Counted from the first letter of the stretch, positions 54,201 through 63,832 are shown. The stretch is 64,000 bases of DNA from Anaerolineaceae bacterium (GCA_002702065.1 NZXX01000013.1:248001-312000), one strand, 5' to 3'. Notes: generated from the sequence alone by a model not told the origin. A program made the numbers and translations.

Positions 54201-54473
54201 GATCGGCATATCTCCTGAATGCAGTTATCTCAAACGGCACGAGCATACCTCATATTGAGGCGACCAATCCAGCGTTCATACTCGAGTATTGTTTATCGAT
54301 ACAGGGTCTTTACAATTTACGGACAAGATCATTCGTGGATTGAAAATTAATTTATAGTTGGTGAATTAGGTAAAAATTCATTTAAATTAATTGAAAGTCA
54401 ATCCTAAAACCTCTATGCTAAAGTCACTCCACAAGGGAGGAGATTGACCATATTCAAGCAAAGGCTCTTTACC

Positions 54474-55505
54474 ATGTTTAACAGACGACTTTCAAAACTC
54501 GCAGTCCCGGTTCTCATTATGGGGCTGGCGTTTGCCGCAACCAGCGCCTCCGCCCAAACGCTGGCCTGTTCAATCAATGCGCCAGCGTCGATTGATGAAA
54601 ACCAGACGCTGACCATTACATTTGAATGTGATGACATCCCGGCGCCGGGTGTATTCGGTGTGGAGCTGGATCACAGCGTCGATGCCACCAGCATCACGGC
54701 TTCCAGCGGCGGCCTGAAGGTGGGTGTTCCCACTGTGGAATACATCGCCAGCCGGGGCTCAACCTCCGATGCTTATACCGATGGCAACATCTTCGATACG
54801 CTGGCAACCATTGATCTGAAGAACCTGCATGATGAAACCGGCGGCCTGTATGTGGTCAGCCTCAACAATGAGAGCGGCGCCCAGACACCTGCTACCGGCA
54901 GCAAGACTATTTCCAGCACCAGCTACTACCTGCCGCAGCCGGGCACCCTGACCATTAACGTGGATAACTTCATTCTGGGTGACCAGAACGGTCAGCAGCT
55001 GGCCGACGACCATACCATTACATCCGTCAATATCACGGTGAACGACCTGCCGCTGGCCTCGCTGGTGGGCAATATCGAGCGCGAAGCCTATGACGGCACC
55101 AACACAGACCTGACCGCCCTGACCATTACCATCGATGACGCAGCACCGGTCTCGGTGGTGGAAGATGCTGGTGGTGATGGCGCCGACTTCACGTATGCCG
55201 AAACACTGGCACTGACCAGCACCCTGGTTGTGGATGCCGACTCGCACCTGGGCTGCACCGACGCCACATTCGCCCTGCTGGACGAGGACAACACACTGGG
55301 CACACTGGTGCTGCTGGCCGGCGATGTCAACGACGACGACACCATCAACATTACCGACAGCACCGCCATCGGGCTGGACTTCGGCAATGCCATGCTGGCT
55401 GACGAAGCCGTCGACATCAACGACGATCAGATTATCAACGTGCTTGATCTGATCCATGTGGGCCGCAACTACGCCGAAACCGCCGGTACCTGCAGCTTCT
55501 CGTAA
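54474..55505 (+). CDS. Secreted cohesin-like protein with C-terminal type I dockerin
   Basis: Signal peptide ending TSASAQ; two loops DVNDDDTINITD and DINDDQIINVLD. Confidence 0.8.
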   Translation: MFNRRLSKLAVPVLIMGLAFAATSASAQTLACSINAPASIDENQTLTITFECDDIPAPGVFGVELDHSVDATSITASSGGLKVGVPTVEYIASRGSTSDAYTDGNIFDTLATIDLKNLHDETGGLYVVSLNNESGAQTPATGSKTISSTSYYLPQPGTLTINVDNFILGDQNGQQLADDHTITSVNITVNDLPLASLVGNIEREAYDGTNTDLTALTITIDDAAPVSVVEDAGGDGADFTYAETLALTSTLVVDADSHLGCTDATFALLDEDNTLGTLVLLAGDVNDDDTINITDSTAIGLDFGNAMLADEAVDINDDQIINVLDLIHVGRNYAETAGTCSFS

Positions 55506-55533
55506 ACCACGCTGCGAAACCACGCACAGCCGA

Positions 55534-55558
55534 GGGGGGCATTTCCGCCCCCCTTTCT
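55534..55558 (+). terminator. Rho-independent terminator-like hairpin
   Basis: GGGGGGC atttcc GCCCCCC TTTCT. Confidence 0.7.
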
Positions 55559-55571
55559 ACCCGTTGAATGA

Positions 55572-56261
55572 ATGAACAGAAAGAATCACATCATGCGAGG
55601 TTTTATCACACGCACACTGCCAATTAGTGTGTTGACCGTCCTTATTCTGATCAGTGTCACCGCCGCGATGGCCCAGGTATACCCCAGTGTGGATGTCAGT
55701 CTGAACGCGTCGCGGGCCCAGATCAACGAACTTATCTATGCGGACGTAATGGTTCGCAACGGAGTCAATATTGCCGGTGCCGATGTGGAACTGGCTGTAG
55801 AGGGCAACTGCCTGCGGGTCGAAGGTATGGAACCGGGCAGCTATATGCCCACCAGCGGCGACCGGGGCTTCACCGTCTTTAAAGCAAATACCGAAACCAC
55901 CGCGCGGCTGGCCGCCAATGTACTGGGGCGCGAGAACGTGTTACAGGGCGATGGTGTCTTTTTCCGGGTGCCACTGCGGGTCGTCTGCAATGATAACGAC
56001 TCCACTACGGTACGCATTGCCCAGGCGCAGTTGGTCGATGACCAGTTAACTGAATTCAAGCTGGTTGATGGCCTGCTGAACACGACCAACGCGGTCCTGA
56101 CGGTCGGCGCAGAGAGTCTGCCGGTGGTGGCGGACGTCGCCGAACAGGTCACAGCGGAAAGCAGCTCACCGGCCAAAATGGTGATCGTCGTCCTCGCCGG
56201 GCTGCTGGGCATCGTCTTCCTGGTTGGTGGTATGACCTTCTGGCGGCGTTCGCGTCAGTAA
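55572..56261 (+). CDS. Cohesin-like domain protein with C-terminal TM anchor
   Basis: Signal peptide; VDVSLNASRAQINELIYADVMVRNGVNIAGADVEL; C-terminal VIVVLAGLLGIVFLVGGMTFWRRSRQ. Confidence 0.65.
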   Translation: MNRKNHIMRGFITRTLPISVLTVLILISVTAAMAQVYPSVDVSLNASRAQINELIYADVMVRNGVNIAGADVELAVEGNCLRVEGMEPGSYMPTSGDRGFTVFKANTETTARLAANVLGRENVLQGDGVFFRVPLRVVCNDNDSTTVRIAQAQLVDDQLTEFKLVDGLLNTTNAVLTVGAESLPVVADVAEQVTAESSSPAKMVIVVLAGLLGIVFLVGGMTFWRRSRQ

Positions 56262-56366: not shown

Positions 56367-57647
56367 ATGTCTTTGAATCGTGGATGGATCATCATAGTAG
56401 CGGTGTGTTGCCTGGTGGCGATCATCGTGCCCAATTTCTCGGCGACGCTGAACCCGGAATCGACCGAGGAACCTGGGGTATCCACCGAGACAGAGACACC
56501 GACCCCAACCGCAACGCCCACCAACCCACCCACGATGACTGAAGCAGCACCCATCGAAACCACCCTGCCGACAGCGACGATGATGCTGCCTTCCAGCACG
56601 CCGCTGCCCACGCTGACCGCGACACCGGTGGTCGAGCAAACAGTCGAAGTCACGCCGGTTACAGAGGTTGCGACCGAGGCGACCATCATCCCCACCCAGC
56701 CAACCGAAACGCCAACCGTGTTATCGCCGGAGGTGACGCCAGAAGTGACCCCGGAAACCACTCAGGAGCCCGCGCCGACCCTGACAGCAACCCTGGCTGG
56801 CGAAGCAACTGCCGAAGTCACCGAGCCTGTTGAAATCGTCGCCACCGAGACTCCGGTGATCACCCCGACAGACGGCACCGCTACAGTGACGCCTGAAGTC
56901 ACCGAAACGGAACTGACCCCGACCCCAACACTGGATCTGACAGCGACCGTCACCGAGATACCGGCTACATCCACCGAAACACCGAATGTCTGGGTCGTGG
57001 TCGGGCAGCAATCGCTGCTGGCAGGCGAGACGACATCGGTACAGGTGCTGATCGACTGCACGGTGGGAAGCTGCGACGGTGTTGAGATCGTCCTGGGCTA
57101 TGATCCGGCGCTGGTGCAGGTGCTGAATGTTCGCGCTGGTGAATATCTGCTGCGGACCGAGAATGCCCTGTCGCCCGCCGACGTGGTTATTGATGCCGTT
57201 CAGCACACCATTTCGGCGGCGTTTCACAAAATTAACGAAGGGGCACAGCCTACCAACGGCAGTGGTGTCCTGCTCGAAATTGATGTGATGGGCTTTGGCG
57301 CCGGGATCAGCTCGCTGGATGTGCAGCAGGTGGTCATTCTGGACCTGCTGGGCAATCCGGTGGATGCGACCGGTAGTGCTGGTGCTGTGGTGGTCCTGGA
57401 AGCGCCTACCTTAACCCCGACATTGACACTGACAGCAACCCTCGAACCATCCCCAACCATGACGGCTACCCCAACCGAAGTGTGCCTGCCGCTGGATGTC
57501 ACCTCGCTGGATCTGGAACAGATGCGGCAGACCTATGGCACCCTTGGCACAGCGCCGGATTTCCGCGAGGATGTCAACGGCGATGGCACCGTCAATATTC
57601 TCGATCTGGCTCTGGTTGCCAACGGCCACCTTTGTTCCCCGAATTGA
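56367..57647 (+). CDS. TM-anchored Thr/Pro-linker, cohesin, linker, dockerin-like protein
   Basis: N-terminal TM; T/P/E linker; VVVGQQSLLAGETTSVQVLIDC...GVEIVLGYDPALVQVLNV cohesin; DVNGDGTVNILD dockerin loop. Confidence 0.8.
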   Translation: MSLNRGWIIIVAVCCLVAIIVPNFSATLNPESTEEPGVSTETETPTPTATPTNPPTMTEAAPIETTLPTATMMLPSSTPLPTLTATPVVEQTVEVTPVTEVATEATIIPTQPTETPTVLSPEVTPEVTPETTQEPAPTLTATLAGEATAEVTEPVEIVATETPVITPTDGTATVTPEVTETELTPTPTLDLTATVTEIPATSTETPNVWVVVGQQSLLAGETTSVQVLIDCTVGSCDGVEIVLGYDPALVQVLNVRAGEYLLRTENALSPADVVIDAVQHTISAAFHKINEGAQPTNGSGVLLEIDVMGFGAGISSLDVQQVVILDLLGNPVDATGSAGAVVVLEAPTLTPTLTLTATLEPSPTMTATPTEVCLPLDVTSLDLEQMRQTYGTLGTAPDFREDVNGDGTVNILDLALVANGHLCSPN

Positions 57648-58507: not shown

Positions 58508-58635
58508 TTTATTTGTGAATTAGAACACAATATGATTTTCATTGTTTATTTTTCACCATGAGGAAAACCCCCGACTTCGCCCGTCAGTGGCGTTTTTATT
58601 TCCCTGTTTCCAGTTGGTTAATTTAAACGAGGTGC

Positions 58636-58664
58636 TTGCGTACAGGGGAAAGATGATATAGAAT
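58636..58664 (+). promoter_or_regulatory. Candidate plus-strand promoter of the PrimPol leader
   Basis: TTGCGT, 17-nt spacer, TAGAAT. Confidence 0.35.
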
Positions 58665-58678
58665 ACATAACACGGTTT

Positions 58679-58758
58679 AAAAAAGCAAAGTGGGCACACG
58701 ACCATGTGCCCACTGGCTAAACCGTATCGAGCCCGCGCCAACAGGATTCGATAGGATG
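58679..58758 (-). ncRNA. Candidate approx. 80-nt antisense RNA ending in an intrinsic terminator
   Basis: Strong minus-strand promoter 58765-58792; TATCGA/TCGATA stem; GTGGGCACA tggtcg TGTGCCCAC followed by TTTGCTTTTTT. Confidence 0.55.
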
Positions 58759-58764
58759 AACTCA

Positions 58765-58792
58765 ATTATAGCACAAATCACCAATAATGCAA
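58765..58792 (-). promoter_or_regulatory. Near-consensus sigma70-type promoter with extended -10
   Basis: Minus strand TTGCAT, 16 nt, TATAAT preceded by TGN. Confidence 0.6.
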
Positions 58793-58900
58793 AAGTTGAG
58801 GGAATCTCTAACGAAGCGATTGGCGGCACAGGAAGGCACTAAAAATGGAGCCCTGACCGCACATACGTTCTAATATTTATTGGCTTACGCACTCAGTCCC

Positions 58901-59001
58901 TATAAAGGCGAAAGCCCGGTTTCCCTGCTTTAGTTTCTCAGGCTGATTCAGGTAAACGGGCCTATTGAGGAGATGCCTAAGCATCGGTATATGCGCTATT
59001 T
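58901..59001 (-). ncRNA. Second candidate structured RNA
   Basis: Downstream of minus promoter 59008-59036; GATGC-TTAG-GCATC hairpin, CCCGTTTACCTG/CAGGGAAACCGGG stem, GGC-TTTC-GCC then TTTATA. Confidence 0.4.
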
Positions 59002-59007
59002 CCCTGA

Positions 59008-59036
59008 ATTATAGCGCAAAAAACGTCGATTCGCAA
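59008..59036 (-). promoter_or_regulatory. Near-consensus sigma70-type promoter
   Basis: Minus strand TTGCGA, 17-nt spacer, TATAAT. Confidence 0.55.
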
Positions 59037-59064
59037 CAGGCAAATCCCTCAAGTAAGGTTAAAT

Positions 59065-61329
59065 TTGCCTGTTTATGGCAGGTCTACGGTATTTGATTCG
59101 CAAATTGCGGCATGGAATCAGCAGCGTTTTTCGCTGATTCCGCTGGTCGGTGGTGCCGATTCGCGTGTTGGCAAGCGCCCTGCCATCCGCTGGCAGCCCT
59201 TTACCCGGCGCCTCCCCTCCTCCACCGAACTGGAGACGTGGTTTGGTGCGGGCGACAGGCTGGCCTATGGTGTGGTTTGCGGGATGGTGTCCGGTCTGGT
59301 GGTTCTGGACCTGGATGATCTCCAGCTTGCTCACCGCTTTGCCCGTCAGTTCCCTCATCTTATCCAGACATTTACCGTTCAATCTGGCGTGCGTGGGACC
59401 CCACACCTCTACTGGCGTGCTAATTTCCCGGTAAGAACCCGGTCCTTCCCCGGTGGTGACCTGAAAGCTGATGGCAGTTATGTGGTTGGTCCCGGATCAC
59501 AGATCGCTGGCCGCGAGTGGCAGGTTCTGTGTCATCAGCCCGTGCGCCCGATCAGCCGTGAAGAACTGGATGCGGTACTGACCTATTTGATGCCTCCGGC
59601 GCAACCAGACCCTGAACCAGTAACCCCTGTTGCCAATGCAGATTTTGCCGCGTTGTATGGCTATTATGTGGATCGGTTGCAGAGCCGCAATGAAGCGTTG
59701 TTCCGGGTAGCCTGCCTGATGCGCGACCGGGGTTTTACGTTAGATGCGGTGATTGATCGATTGGCTGAGGTCCATGCCTGCCAGGTGTCGCCGTCTGGTG
59801 CGGTGACCGAAGCGTTCAGCCAGCGCTATGGTGAAGCACTGCGCACGATCCGCAGTGTGTTTACCCGCCCGGCTCGGCGTCAGCACGTGGCGTACAACAA
59901 TGATCAGCAACCGGTGAGCCGTTATCCGAACGCGGTGCGCGAGGCGTTGCTGCTCCGGCGTGATGGTGCCGCCATTGCTCGCACAATTGAAGCAGCTCGA
60001 TTGATGGGTATTGGTGCTGGTGCTGTGATCACGGAGCCGATGCTGTGCCGCTTGCTGAAGGGAATCATCAGCCGTGAGACGATCCGTAAAGCGCTGGCAG
60101 CCTGCTATGAAGATGGCCAACCTGTGTTTTGCCCCCCTGAGAACCCCCGTGCTGTAGCTGAAATCCCTGACGGGATGGTGAGACAAAACAATGCTATTTT
60201 GTCAGGTGGACAAAAGCAGACACGCCAGTTTATCCTGCCCGATGCGGCTACCCTGTGCCGCAAGCTGGGCGTTCGGGCCAAAGGCAGCGACCCGATTACG
60301 CTCGACGATGTACGCAGCTCGCGCTTGTACCGGCTGGCGCTGCATCAGGCGTTGTTACGGCGGCGTCCGGGCACTTATGCGCAGGCGCTGCTGGCGTCAC
60401 GGCTGGGCCTCAGCAGTCGATCCGTGCGGCGTTACAACGAGGCTCTGGGTGTACAGAGTCAGCCGACTTACCACGAAACACCGCTGCTGTGGATAAACCT
60501 GGACACGGTTCCGAGTGCTGGCGATATTGATCGCTTCGAAATCCGTACAGGCGGCCAGTTTCTGCTGGATGATACGGGCAAGCGCTGGCCGCTAAAGCGC
60601 GAGATTGCCGCCCAGCTGCTCAGTCGTGGGCATCGTGTTTCGCACATGCGGCAGGGATTCAGTTCGTATCATTGTGGCGACGCGGTTTTGAAACAGGCGG
60701 AACAGGCCGCGGTTCCGGCATCCATGCCGCCAGCACTGGCGACAATAGACAGCCAGCCAACAGCATGCCCGGCAGCGGCTCATCTCACCAGCCATGCAGC
60801 TGCGCCAGAACCCATGCAGCACCGCCCGAATTTGACGCGAGAAGGCCCCTCTGGGCGGCGCAGCCCGCAACAGGCTGTTTTTACTCGTAAAAACGCCAGC
60901 AAACGCCGTTTTCGCCAGCCACTGCCGGATAGCACCGCTGAACGACTCGCATGCCGCATCCATCGCCTGATTGATGACATGACACTGCCGAACGCGCGGC
61001 GGCTGGTCGATACCTATGATGCGGCTTCCGCTGAGGCAGCGCTGCGGAAATTCCGCTGGCTGAAGGCCCATCGCCATGTGACGGATGAAGCCGGGCTGAT
61101 CGTGACACTGGCGCGCACCAGCTGGCTGGCCCGTAAACGCCGCGCTGCTGAGCTGGCACCTGCGCCGTGCTTCCATGCCGAGCCGAGTCGCAAGCGTCGG
61201 GCAACGGGCTACGTGCATCCCAAGCGCGACTCGCTGAGGCAGTCAAGTACATACCGGGACTGGCGGGCGGACTTTTTCGGCTGGGATGATCCGCTGGCGG
61301 ATACGACGACGGAGGCCATGGCGTTCTGA
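59065..61329 (+). CDS. Bifunctional DNA primase/polymerase (PrimPol)-like replication protein, probable TTG start
   Basis: SGLVVLDLDD (AEP DxD motif), TPHLYWR (H motif), GSYVVGPGS; AAGTAAGG upstream. Confidence 0.8.
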   Translation: MPVYGRSTVFDSQIAAWNQQRFSLIPLVGGADSRVGKRPAIRWQPFTRRLPSSTELETWFGAGDRLAYGVVCGMVSGLVVLDLDDLQLAHRFARQFPHLIQTFTVQSGVRGTPHLYWRANFPVRTRSFPGGDLKADGSYVVGPGSQIAGREWQVLCHQPVRPISREELDAVLTYLMPPAQPDPEPVTPVANADFAALYGYYVDRLQSRNEALFRVACLMRDRGFTLDAVIDRLAEVHACQVSPSGAVTEAFSQRYGEALRTIRSVFTRPARRQHVAYNNDQQPVSRYPNAVREALLLRRDGAAIARTIEAARLMGIGAGAVITEPMLCRLLKGIISRETIRKALAACYEDGQPVFCPPENPRAVAEIPDGMVRQNNAILSGGQKQTRQFILPDAATLCRKLGVRAKGSDPITLDDVRSSRLYRLALHQALLRRRPGTYAQALLASRLGLSSRSVRRYNEALGVQSQPTYHETPLLWINLDTVPSAGDIDRFEIRTGGQFLLDDTGKRWPLKREIAAQLLSRGHRVSHMRQGFSSYHCGDAVLKQAEQAAVPASMPPALATIDSQPTACPAAAHLTSHAAAPEPMQHRPNLTREGPSGRRSPQQAVFTRKNASKRRFRQPLPDSTAERLACRIHRLIDDMTLPNARRLVDTYDAASAEAALRKFRWLKAHRHVTDEAGLIVTLARTSWLARKRRAAELAPAPCFHAEPSRKRRATGYVHPKRDSLRQSSTYRDWRADFFGWDDPLADTTTEAMAF

Positions 61330-61452: not shown

Positions 61453-61713
61453 ATGAAAATACTTGAACCGGACTACAATTCGCCACCCATTACTGATCAG
61501 GCACTCAAGATTCTGGACGTCTTGCAGGATAAACCTGGCGAGTGGATGAAGCGTAAGGAAATTGCACTGGCTCTGGGTAAACGCCGCCTGACCCCGTATG
61601 ATATTGAATTATTGCAGCGTTTATGTGATGAAAAACTGGCCGAGATTGGCAAGCGGCCCAACCCGACGCCGATTGGTTTTGAATATGCCTACCGCGCCAT
61701 GTCTGAGGATTAG
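61453..61713 (+). CDS. Small wHTH-like protein
   Basis: LKILDVLQDKPGEWMKRKEIALALGKRRLTPYDIELLQRLCDEKLAEI; located between PrimPol and parA. Confidence 0.6.
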   Translation: MKILEPDYNSPPITDQALKILDVLQDKPGEWMKRKEIALALGKRRLTPYDIELLQRLCDEKLAEIGKRPNPTPIGFEYAYRAMSED

Positions 61714-61722
61714 GAAAATATC

Positions 61723-62517
61723 ATGAAAGTGGTGACTTTACTCAACGAAAAAGGCGGTGTCGGCAAGACCACCGTCGCCACACATCTGGCCACTGGGCTG
61801 GCGATCAAGGGCTATCGGGTGCTGCTGGTGGATGCTGATCCGCAGGGTCATGCCACCGTGATGTTCGGGCTGAGCAAGGAACCGGGCCTATCCGACCTGC
61901 TGATACGCAATGCGCCGTATCAGCGCGTGCTGCGGCCCATCCCGCCGGAGATGTATGAGATCCCTGGCGAACCGGTGCGTGGCCGCCTGTATCTGATTTC
62001 GTCGAATGTCGAAACGCGCAACATTTCGACCAGCATGAGCAATATTCTGGTGTTCCGCGACCGGCTGCTCCCGCTGGAAACCACTGTTGATGTGGTGATT
62101 GTGGATACATCGCCAACACCGTCGATGCTGCATGGCTCGGTGGCGCTGGCGACGGATGGCATCGTGATCCCGACACTGTGCGAAATGCTGGCGTTTGATG
62201 GTGTGCGCGAAAGCCTGCTGCATCGCGAAAGCTTCGTGAGTAAAAAGCAGGAGCTGGGCCTGGGCGATGTCGAATTGTTCGGTATTGTCCCGACCCGGTA
62301 CAAGCAGAAAACGCTGGAACATACAGAAATGCTCGAACAGCTCGTCGAGGCATTTGGCGATACCGTGTGGAAGCCGGTTCAGGATCGAATTATCTGGAGC
62401 GAGGCGGCGCGCGCGTACCGCCCGACGTTCAGTTATGCACCGGGTTCGCAGGCCGCGATGGACGCCTGGAATCTGGTGGAACGCGCGGAGGAGGCACTGG
62501 CTAATGTCCCGTCGTGA
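61723..62517 (+). CDS. parA: ParA-family ATPase
   Basis: LLNEKGGVGKTTVATHLATGLA deviant Walker A. Confidence 0.93.
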   Translation: MKVVTLLNEKGGVGKTTVATHLATGLAIKGYRVLLVDADPQGHATVMFGLSKEPGLSDLLIRNAPYQRVLRPIPPEMYEIPGEPVRGRLYLISSNVETRNISTSMSNILVFRDRLLPLETTVDVVIVDTSPTPSMLHGSVALATDGIVIPTLCEMLAFDGVRESLLHRESFVSKKQELGLGDVELFGIVPTRYKQKTLEHTEMLEQLVEAFGDTVWKPVQDRIIWSEAARAYRPTFSYAPGSQAAMDAWNLVERAEEALANVPS

Positions 62518-63832
62518 TCGATCAAAACTGGGGAAAGCGTTCGGTACGCTGCCGGACCAGGTGACCAAGGAAGAAATCGACCTGGGGTTGTACGGGGACA
62601 TCGCGGCACTGGATGCGCAGCGGCGTGACGCGGCACCGGTCGACATTTTTTCGATTTACCCGGATGTCACCCAGCCGCGCCGCGTGATCCCAACCGAAGT
62701 ACGCCACATCTGGGCAGGCGACCCGGCCCAGATGCCCGCTTTGTTTGAAGCGTGGTTTGCCGCCATTACGCGCGAACGCAGTGCCCGTCTGCCCAAAAAT
62801 ATGAGCGACGCCGAACGGCAGTCACGCGCCTATTTTGACATTGGCGCCTATCTGGAAGGCACGTACTTGGGTGGCTCTGGCGGCGACGAAGACGACCCCC
62901 AGCCGCAGATCGACCCCGGCCCGCTGGAATCCGGATTTCGGCTGATTGTGGATCTGGCCGCGACGATCCGGCGCGATGGCCTGATTAACCCGATTACGGT
63001 GGCGCATGCCGGGGCGGATTACCGGCTGGAAACCGGCGAACGGCGCTGGCTGGCGTATCACCTGCTGCACGCGTTTTACGATGGCAGCGAGGGCCGCGCT
63101 GATGAGCGCGGTCAATGGGGCAAGATCCCGGCGTATGTGGTCGATACGGCCAGTGTGTGGCGGATGGCGCACGAGAACAACGTCCGTGATGATCTGAACG
63201 CGATTGGCCGGGCGCGCCAGTTTGCGCTGCTGCTGATGAGCATTTACCGGCAGCGGGGTGTTGATTTCGAGTCGTTTGCGGACCTGGTTCAACCCGGTGA
63301 ATGTGACCGTGTGTTTTACAGTCAGGTGGCCGATGGCACCGAGTTCCCGATGCCGCGCGGCAACACCGAGAAGCTGCTCAACGCGATGGGCTTCAGCAGC
63401 AAGAGCCAGCTGCGCGAACACCGGTCGCTGCTGACACTGCCGGACCCGGTGTGGCAGTGGGCGGATGATCTGGGCTGGGCGCAGTACCGCATCCGCAAGA
63501 TGCAGGAGCGGGCGGAGCGCGACCCGGAGAAGCTCATCGAGGTGGCGCAGCAGGAGGCGGAGAAAGACGGGCTAAGTGTCGGGACCCCGACACTTAAGGG
63601 TATCCCAAAGTCCGCGGACCCCTCCCCCACCCTGCCCGACATCGGCCCCCACCGGCGCGGCAAAATCCTGATTTCAAGGGGAGATCGGGCCAGAATTCGC
63701 GAATTAATGCTGCTGCGGAGTGGGGTAGGGCAGGTGGATAACCCAACCAAGCAGTACATCCGCGAGGAGATCAACGCGGCCCGCCGCTGGCTCAAACATC
63801 TGGAGCAGGCGCTCGACGACGACAAGTCCTGA
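62504..63832 (+). CDS. parB: ParB-like partition protein
   Basis: Overlaps parA end by 14 bp; INPITVAHAGADYRLETGERRWLAYHLL contains the GERR motif. Confidence 0.85.
   Translation: MSRRDRSKLGKAFGTLPDQVTKEEIDLGLYGDIAALDAQRRDAAPVDIFSIYPDVTQPRRVIPTEVRHIWAGDPAQMPALFEAWFAAITRERSARLPKNMSDAERQSRAYFDIGAYLEGTYLGGSGGDEDDPQPQIDPGPLESGFRLIVDLAATIRRDGLINPITVAHAGADYRLETGERRWLAYHLLHAFYDGSEGRADERGQWGKIPAYVVDTASVWRMAHENNVRDDLNAIGRARQFALLLMSIYRQRGVDFESFADLVQPGECDRVFYSQVADGTEFPMPRGNTEKLLNAMGFSSKSQLREHRSLLTLPDPVWQWADDLGWAQYRIRKMQERAERDPEKLIEVAQQEAEKDGLSVGTPTLKGIPKSADPSPTLPDIGPHRRGKILISRGDRARIRELMLLRSGVGQVDNPTKQYIREEINAARRWLKHLEQALDDDKS
63573..63596. promoter_or_regulatory. Perfect 11+11 inverted repeat within parB, candidate parS-like site
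   Basis: TAAGTGTCGGG AC CCCGACACTTA. Confidence 0.45.

Follow-up and report, generated by a model that had tools for sequence, protein, structure and literature searches.

A putative antisense RNA opposite the leader of a PrimPol replication gene on a 486-kb circular replicon of an Anaerolineaceae bacterium

The general plan of a countertranscribed RNA (ctRNA) placed on a rep leader is familiar from RNAII of pMV158, RNAIII of pIP501 and CopA of R1. By analogy, the nearest functional precedent for the locus described here is plasmid ColE2, where an antisense RNA to the 5′ untranslated leader of the Rep mRNA acts post-transcriptionally, according to the account in PMC5304414 (citing Yasueda 1994), and where the Rep protein belongs to the Prim-Pol superfamily (PMC10345425). 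In pSYSA of Synechocystis, the primase-type Rep CyRepA1 is encoded next to an antisense RNA (ssr7036/asRNA1; PMC9978351). The text of the replication papers on pRN1 does not mention an antisense RNA.

We analysed a 64,000-nucleotide stretch (the window) of an Anaerolineaceae bacterium and consider it very probable that PrimPol on a 486-kb circular secondary replicon is controlled by a ctRNA of its own, here called asRNA1, which is predicted from the sequence to be transcribed, to pair with the PrimPol leader and to lower PrimPol synthesis, giving feedback on copy number. The likeness to ColE2 is a small antisense RNA, here a predicted one, with complementarity to the 5′ leader of the mRNA for a Prim-Pol-type Rep; the differences are the 754-aa PF09250 protein, the 486-kb ParAB replicon, the Chloroflexota host and a second antisense promoter. 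The protein also falls outside the ColE2-family Reps as defined by a primase with PriCT/HTH domains, as a Pfam search gave no domain besides PF09250 and PLSDB gave no match. The antisense RNA of pSYSA lies on a small ORF that precedes the rep gene, and RNase E processing and RNA priming have been proposed for that plasmid (PMC9978351); asRNA1 is instead opposite the rep leader. The plasmids pMV158, pIP501 and R1 differ in their Rep families and hosts, and no attenuator was seen here. The literature searched, most subscription papers being outside its reach, held no description of ctRNA control of a Chloroflexota PrimPol, as the first-pass annotation had supposed; the novelty is nevertheless narrower than it had it, because antisense control of primase-type Reps was already known from ColE2 and pSYSA.

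The window covers bases 248,001–312,000 of a contig of 485,746 bp (C13), the ends of which overlap perfectly over 99 bp, as in a circular assembly. The cumulative GC-skew minimum of the contig is at 304,982 (56,982 in the window), approximately 1.5–2 kb before the PrimPol leader, and DnaA matches were found on contigs C12 and C3 and none on C13. Given its place close to the skew minimum, and with the circular contig lacking dnaA, the PrimPol–HTH–ParA–ParB region probably serves as the replication origin of a circular 486-kb megaplasmid or chromid; the origin and the initiator role of PrimPol are deduced from linkage and skew. The skew maximum is not opposite the minimum and the two arms look unequal. 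The two ends of the contig share many overlapping stretches of 70–77% identity and up to 3.3 kb, which suggests a very long repeat-rich gene across the circular join. Close to the skew minimum, positions 56367–57647 encode a protein that is predicted to be secreted and weakly matches cohesin and dockerin domains, preceded by two further predicted secreted proteins (54444–56261). Full-length PrimPol homologues were found on two other contigs, C6 (49.8 kb, its ends likewise overlapping over 99 bp) and C11 (173 kb, with the skew minimum 4 kb from its PrimPol), and a shorter, partial match on C7. The cell may thus hold several PrimPol replicons (C13, C6 and C11), which would need distinct antisense RNAs for their coexistence.

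The PrimPol-domain replication protein (PF09250, E 3.9e-14) is encoded on the plus strand at 59065–61329 from a TTG start. It is followed on the same strand by an 86-aa protein without Pfam match (61453–61713), a 73% identical homologue of which occupies the same place in a relative (L047), by ParA (61723–62517; PF13614, E 4e-28) and by a ParB-like partition protein (62504–63832), whose start was set at an in-frame ATG overlapping parA and whose PF02195 match is below the cut-off (E 7e-5). The HTH, ParA and ParB genes of the first-pass annotation therefore hold for ParA and, through the weak match, for ParB, whereas the HTH assignment finds no counterpart in Pfam. The same four genes occur in the same order in L047; ParA–ParB is convergent with PrimPol in genus g17 and in L043, L048, L055 and L103, and ParB adjoins PrimPol and ParA in L047, the g17 genomes, L043 and L048. 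Because PrimPol is linked with ParA–ParB in several lineages, the locus appears to be a replicon core, and with PrimPol-, ParA- and ParB-like genes downstream and the skew minimum nearby, the term replicon control region fits the sequence upstream of PrimPol.

PrimPol homologues were present in 59 of the 98 genomes of the family, whereas a class-wide search at E ≤ 1e-25 found them in 7 of 298 genomes, 6 of them from the same family; the named PrimPol-bearing members are metagenome-assembled genomes of Anaerolineae/Chloroflexota. For the contig search, a single protein query returned nothing and a 22-sequence alignment was too diverse, but a 12-sequence alignment was effective. Protein relatives of PrimPol on plasmids, phages and viruses were sought in PLSDB, INPHARED and IMG/VR and none were found. 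Reading of the ORF list showed no clearly recognisable integrase.

The candidate promoter of asRNA1, P1, is on the minus strand at 58765–58792 and reads TTGCAT-N16-TATAAT, with the −35 box TTGCAT at 58792–58787, a 16-nt spacer and an extended −10 element, TGC-TATAAT, at 58770–58765, the TG being that of the extended −10. From the position of P1, the RNA is predicted to start around 58758. Downstream on the same strand is a terminator hairpin, AGTGGGCACATGGTCGTGTGCCCACT (58689–58714), with 11 pairs including G–U and a 9-bp core, and because TTGCTTTTTT (58688–58679) comes directly after it, the 3′ end is placed near 58679, giving a putative RNA of approximately 80 nt (58679–58758, minus strand). 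Direct reading of the sequence thus bears out the promoter, the 9-bp hairpin with its T-run and the RNA of about 80 nt as proposed in the first-pass annotation, and its plus-strand promoter at 58636–58664 (TTGCGT-N17-TAGAAT) is matched exactly. A terminator of the upstream gene was considered as another reading of the hairpin and dropped because the T-run sits on the minus strand.

Cassettes of this type are rare. Under a strict rule, demanding a promoter scoring at least 10/12 or an extended −10 and then a hairpin of at least 7 bp with a T-run within 25–135 nt, only two sites were found on both strands of the 486-kb contig, P1–asRNA1 being one of them, and it is the sole such cassette with an extended −10 scoring at least 12. 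The folding energy of asRNA1 is −34.1 kcal/mol in comparison with −22.0 ± 2.7 in 200 shuffled sequences (z −4.5), none of which was as low. Rfam gave no matches for the whole window at curated/gathering thresholds and only chance-level matches for the leader at a permissive threshold.

The predicted promoter of the PrimPol mRNA, P+ (58636–58664, plus strand), would start transcription at about 58671. The most likely start of PrimPol is the TTG at 59065, and the leader is therefore approximately 390 nt long (58671–59064), both ends being predicted from promoter and start codon. It is strongly structured: the segment 58671–59100 folds with a z of −4.4, and none of 100 shuffles was as low. With a start at about 58671, asRNA1 has its complement in the first ~85 nt of the leader, in line with its earlier placement opposite the likely PrimPol leader. 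The arrangement recurs in relatives: of the 23 homologous asRNA1 loci, 20 have a sense promoter of the form TTGC-N17-TANNNT where the antisense RNA ends, in comparison with 7% of shuffles. The start from this promoter lies mostly 4–16 nt from the antisense RNA 3′ end, so that the antisense RNA faces the very beginning of the rep mRNA.

Such a position on the mRNA start suits mRNA control and counts against a ColE1-like scheme in which one of the overlapping RNAs would prime replication and the antisense RNA would block primer formation instead of PrimPol synthesis. The nearby skew minimum would agree with a primer, and pSYSA has been described in this way (PMC9978351), but a PrimPol could make its own primers, as established for the superfamily (PMC10345425), and we regard priming as very unlikely.

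Around the ribosome-binding site of PrimPol is a perfect 11-bp inverted repeat, AACAGGCAAAT / ATTTGCCTGTT (59035–59073, plus strand), with a Shine–Dalgarno (SD)-like sequence in the loop and the TTG start in the 3′ arm. The layout is kept in L035 and L047, with altered stem bases and retained pairing, and the repeat may act as a hairpin in the RNA or as an operator. The leader also contains a tiny ORF, ATG GAG CCC TGA (58845–58856), with an SD-like AGGAAGG 8 nt upstream; at a similar position in L035, ATG TAG comes after GGAGGAG. Pairs of SD and start codon were found in 17 of 74 leaders, on the antisense strand in 10 of 74 and in 11% of shuffles, an enrichment that is weak and not clear for the family.

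Within asRNA1, the stem-loop SL1 (58725–58753, minus strand) consists of UAUCGA, AU, CCUG, the loop UUGGCG, CGGG, C and UCGAUA. Between the window and L035, a 31-nt SL1 segment is 97% identical while the flanks and terminators differ, and in an alignment of 15 asRNA1 sequences, another genus included (A3), the core CCT--TGG-GC is invariant. The loop is UUGGCG in the window, L035 and L104, where a different stem carries it, and CUGGCG in genus g17, the stems again differing. YUNR loops are typical of antisense systems with loop–loop contact (PMC4485353), and the SL1 loop (58741–58736) contains such a motif (UUGG); by analogy, a [C/U]UGGCG loop of U-turn type suits loop–loop recognition. The I-complex plasmids ColIb-P9, IncK and IncB (Inc RNA/RNAI) resemble asRNA1 in having a stem-loop antisense RNA, a kissing loop and the hexamer UUGGCG. 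In ColIb-P9, judging from the title of Asano 1998 (cited in PMC10724649), the hexamer lies in the target loop, whereas here it is in the antisense loop and the target has CGCCAA; the Rep protein is also unrelated, and we see no clear translated leader peptide. The common UUGGCG is probably a convergence on a U-turn loop. Between the CGCCAA target loop and a TTGGCG at 58820, pairing could give a pseudoknot like that of ColIb-P9, and complements of the loop 6-mer occurred in 17 of 23 loci in comparison with 10.6 expected, a weak test among related sequences.

A strict antisense cassette was found within 800 nt upstream of PrimPol in 16 of 72 loci and in 1 of 360 shuffles, and no such cassette was seen on the sense strand upstream of PrimPol (0/72) or inside the PrimPol coding sequence (0/72). 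With a looser score, which takes in some P2-type cassettes (below), the numbers were 33 of 74 loci, 2 of 296 shuffles and, on the sense strand, 2 of 74 loci. As the loci are related, these counts are not independent trials, although the stems are widely different. The P1-like box in the relatives is TGTG[CT]TATA[AC]T with variants. Since asRNA1 was not recognised in some PrimPol leaders, among them about half of those in genus g17, it is either not universal or not always recognisable. Some g17 loci without recognisable asRNA1 (e.g., L112, L113, L115, L118 and L123) have minus-strand hairpins with the loop CUGCGC(C/G)AACA and a conserved GGATCGG...CCGATC stem approximately 160 nt upstream of PrimPol, the loop being partly complementary to the SL1 type of sister genomes.

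In A3, both members of four pairs in the terminator helix have changed, and none of 500 shuffles and none of the slid controls reached its covariation score. From the 15 sequences we built a covariance model (R1), which, run over the 98 whole genomes, gave 20 matches at E < 1e-4, of which 19 were antisense and upstream of PrimPol and one touched a contig end; many of the 20 are training sequences or near copies and others are from outside the training set. The asRNA1 of the window, itself a training sequence, scores 25 bits, with an E of 0.002 among PrimPol loci and 0.018 among the 98 genomes. Among the collected loci, five of six weak extra matches were in PrimPol antisense leaders. The model is specific to PrimPol leaders, as the remaining non-training members fit and there are no strong matches elsewhere. 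The covariance comparison of related loci, proposed in the first-pass annotation, thus found compensatory changes in the terminator stem and matches almost exclusively in PrimPol leaders, and the promoter and terminator, the loss of which in homologous loci would have spoken against an RNA, keep their position and architecture in many of them.

These patterns also bear on a reading of the hairpin and promoter-like boxes as DNA elements, such as an origin structure or protein-binding sites, and not transcribed RNA. Inverted repeats are frequent in origin regions, and the start-codon repeat as an operator would agree with this, but the T-run is found on one strand only, the order and distance of promoter and terminator are kept in relatives, and the stems vary while the loop and pairing persist. 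We therefore find it hardly credible that DNA elements explain the cassette.

A second minus-strand promoter, P2 (TTGCGA-N17-TATAAT, 59008–59036), lies inside the leader just upstream of the PrimPol start. Within 240 nt upstream of PrimPol, the pattern TTG-N16..18-TANNNT was found on the minus strand in 61 of 75 loci in comparison with 155 of 750 shuffles, 7 of 75 on the sense strand and 3 of 75 in coding sequence, and mostly at one position; in most loci the promoter has the form TTGC-N17-TANNNT and lies 80–110 nt upstream of the conserved PrimPol start. Across PrimPol loci, P2 is more conserved than P1. In many relatives, a long hairpin with a U-tail follows P2, the typical RNA end being ~76–147 nt after it, and within 310 nt upstream of PrimPol, 58 of 74 loci have antisense terminators in comparison with 24% of shuffles. 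From these features a second RNA, asRNA2, likely exists across the family. In the window it is plausible, with putative limits of 58903–59001 (minus strand), a long hairpin at 58963–58912 and the tail UUUCGCCUUUAU; its fold is unexceptional (z −0.75), and the terminator scan made no call on the tail, the terminator being weak there. The single ctRNA expected from the first-pass annotation is hence retained as asRNA1, while the conserved P2 within the leader makes two countertranscripts probable.

The conservation and fixed position of P2, the antisense terminators near PrimPol and the many loci with P2 yet without a recognisable P1 cassette raise the question of whether asRNA2 is the main regulator, with asRNA1 as an accessory or an addition of certain lineages. 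By its fold, asRNA1 is the far stronger RNA in the window, and no other part of the upstream leader is as well conserved as its SL1; we judge a leading role of asRNA2 unlikely, if less so than the other alternatives. With some hesitation, and at slightly less than an even chance, we propose an undescribed replicon class in one Anaerolineae family, with PrimPol and ParAB and up to chromid size, in which two ctRNAs on one rep leader would act as successive checks on PrimPol, asRNA1 on the mRNA 5′ end through its YUGGCG loop and asRNA2 by the start codon.

In the control by asRNA1 that we favour, PrimPol would be the replication protein of the 486-kb circular secondary replicon and its mRNA would begin at about 58671, with asRNA1 made opposite the first ~85 nt, stopping at its own terminator and present in proportion to the number of replicon copies. 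The UUGGCG loop, as a YUNR/U-turn kissing loop, would first contact the CGCCAA loop of a sense stem-loop in the nascent leader, and the pairing would lead to less PrimPol synthesis and fewer replication initiations, a negative feedback on copy number that would make asRNA1 a likely incompatibility determinant. The second RNA, starting from 59001, would probably act nearer the start codon. By analogy, the control probably acts after transcription, and a block that uses the structured leader and start-codon hairpin and affects translation or the stability of the mRNA seems more likely than attenuation, because the terminator scan found no intrinsic terminator on the sense strand of the window's leader. 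In attenuation of the pIP501/pT181 type, pairing of asRNA1 would induce a sense-strand terminator before PrimPol. As in those plasmids, the antisense RNA spans the very start of the leader, and sense terminator-like hairpins were seen in 33 of 74 relatives' loci in comparison with 21% of shuffles; many of these matches are nevertheless the complements of antisense hairpins, and we think attenuation improbable.

What the sequence comparisons support as new is the antisense control of a primase-type Rep on replicons of one Anaerolineae family that are very large, carry ParAB and probably encode a second antisense RNA. Control of this kind would thereby extend to very large, partitioned replicons, and a known type of plasmid brake is now apparent on a replicon class whose control had been obscure. 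The PrimPol–ParAB locus near the skew minimum, together with a copy-control signature shared across genera, offers a concrete and testable initiator and control circuit. The antisense RNA model gives a way to recognise PrimPol replicons in metagenomes, and vector development in an uncultured lineage could start from the locus.
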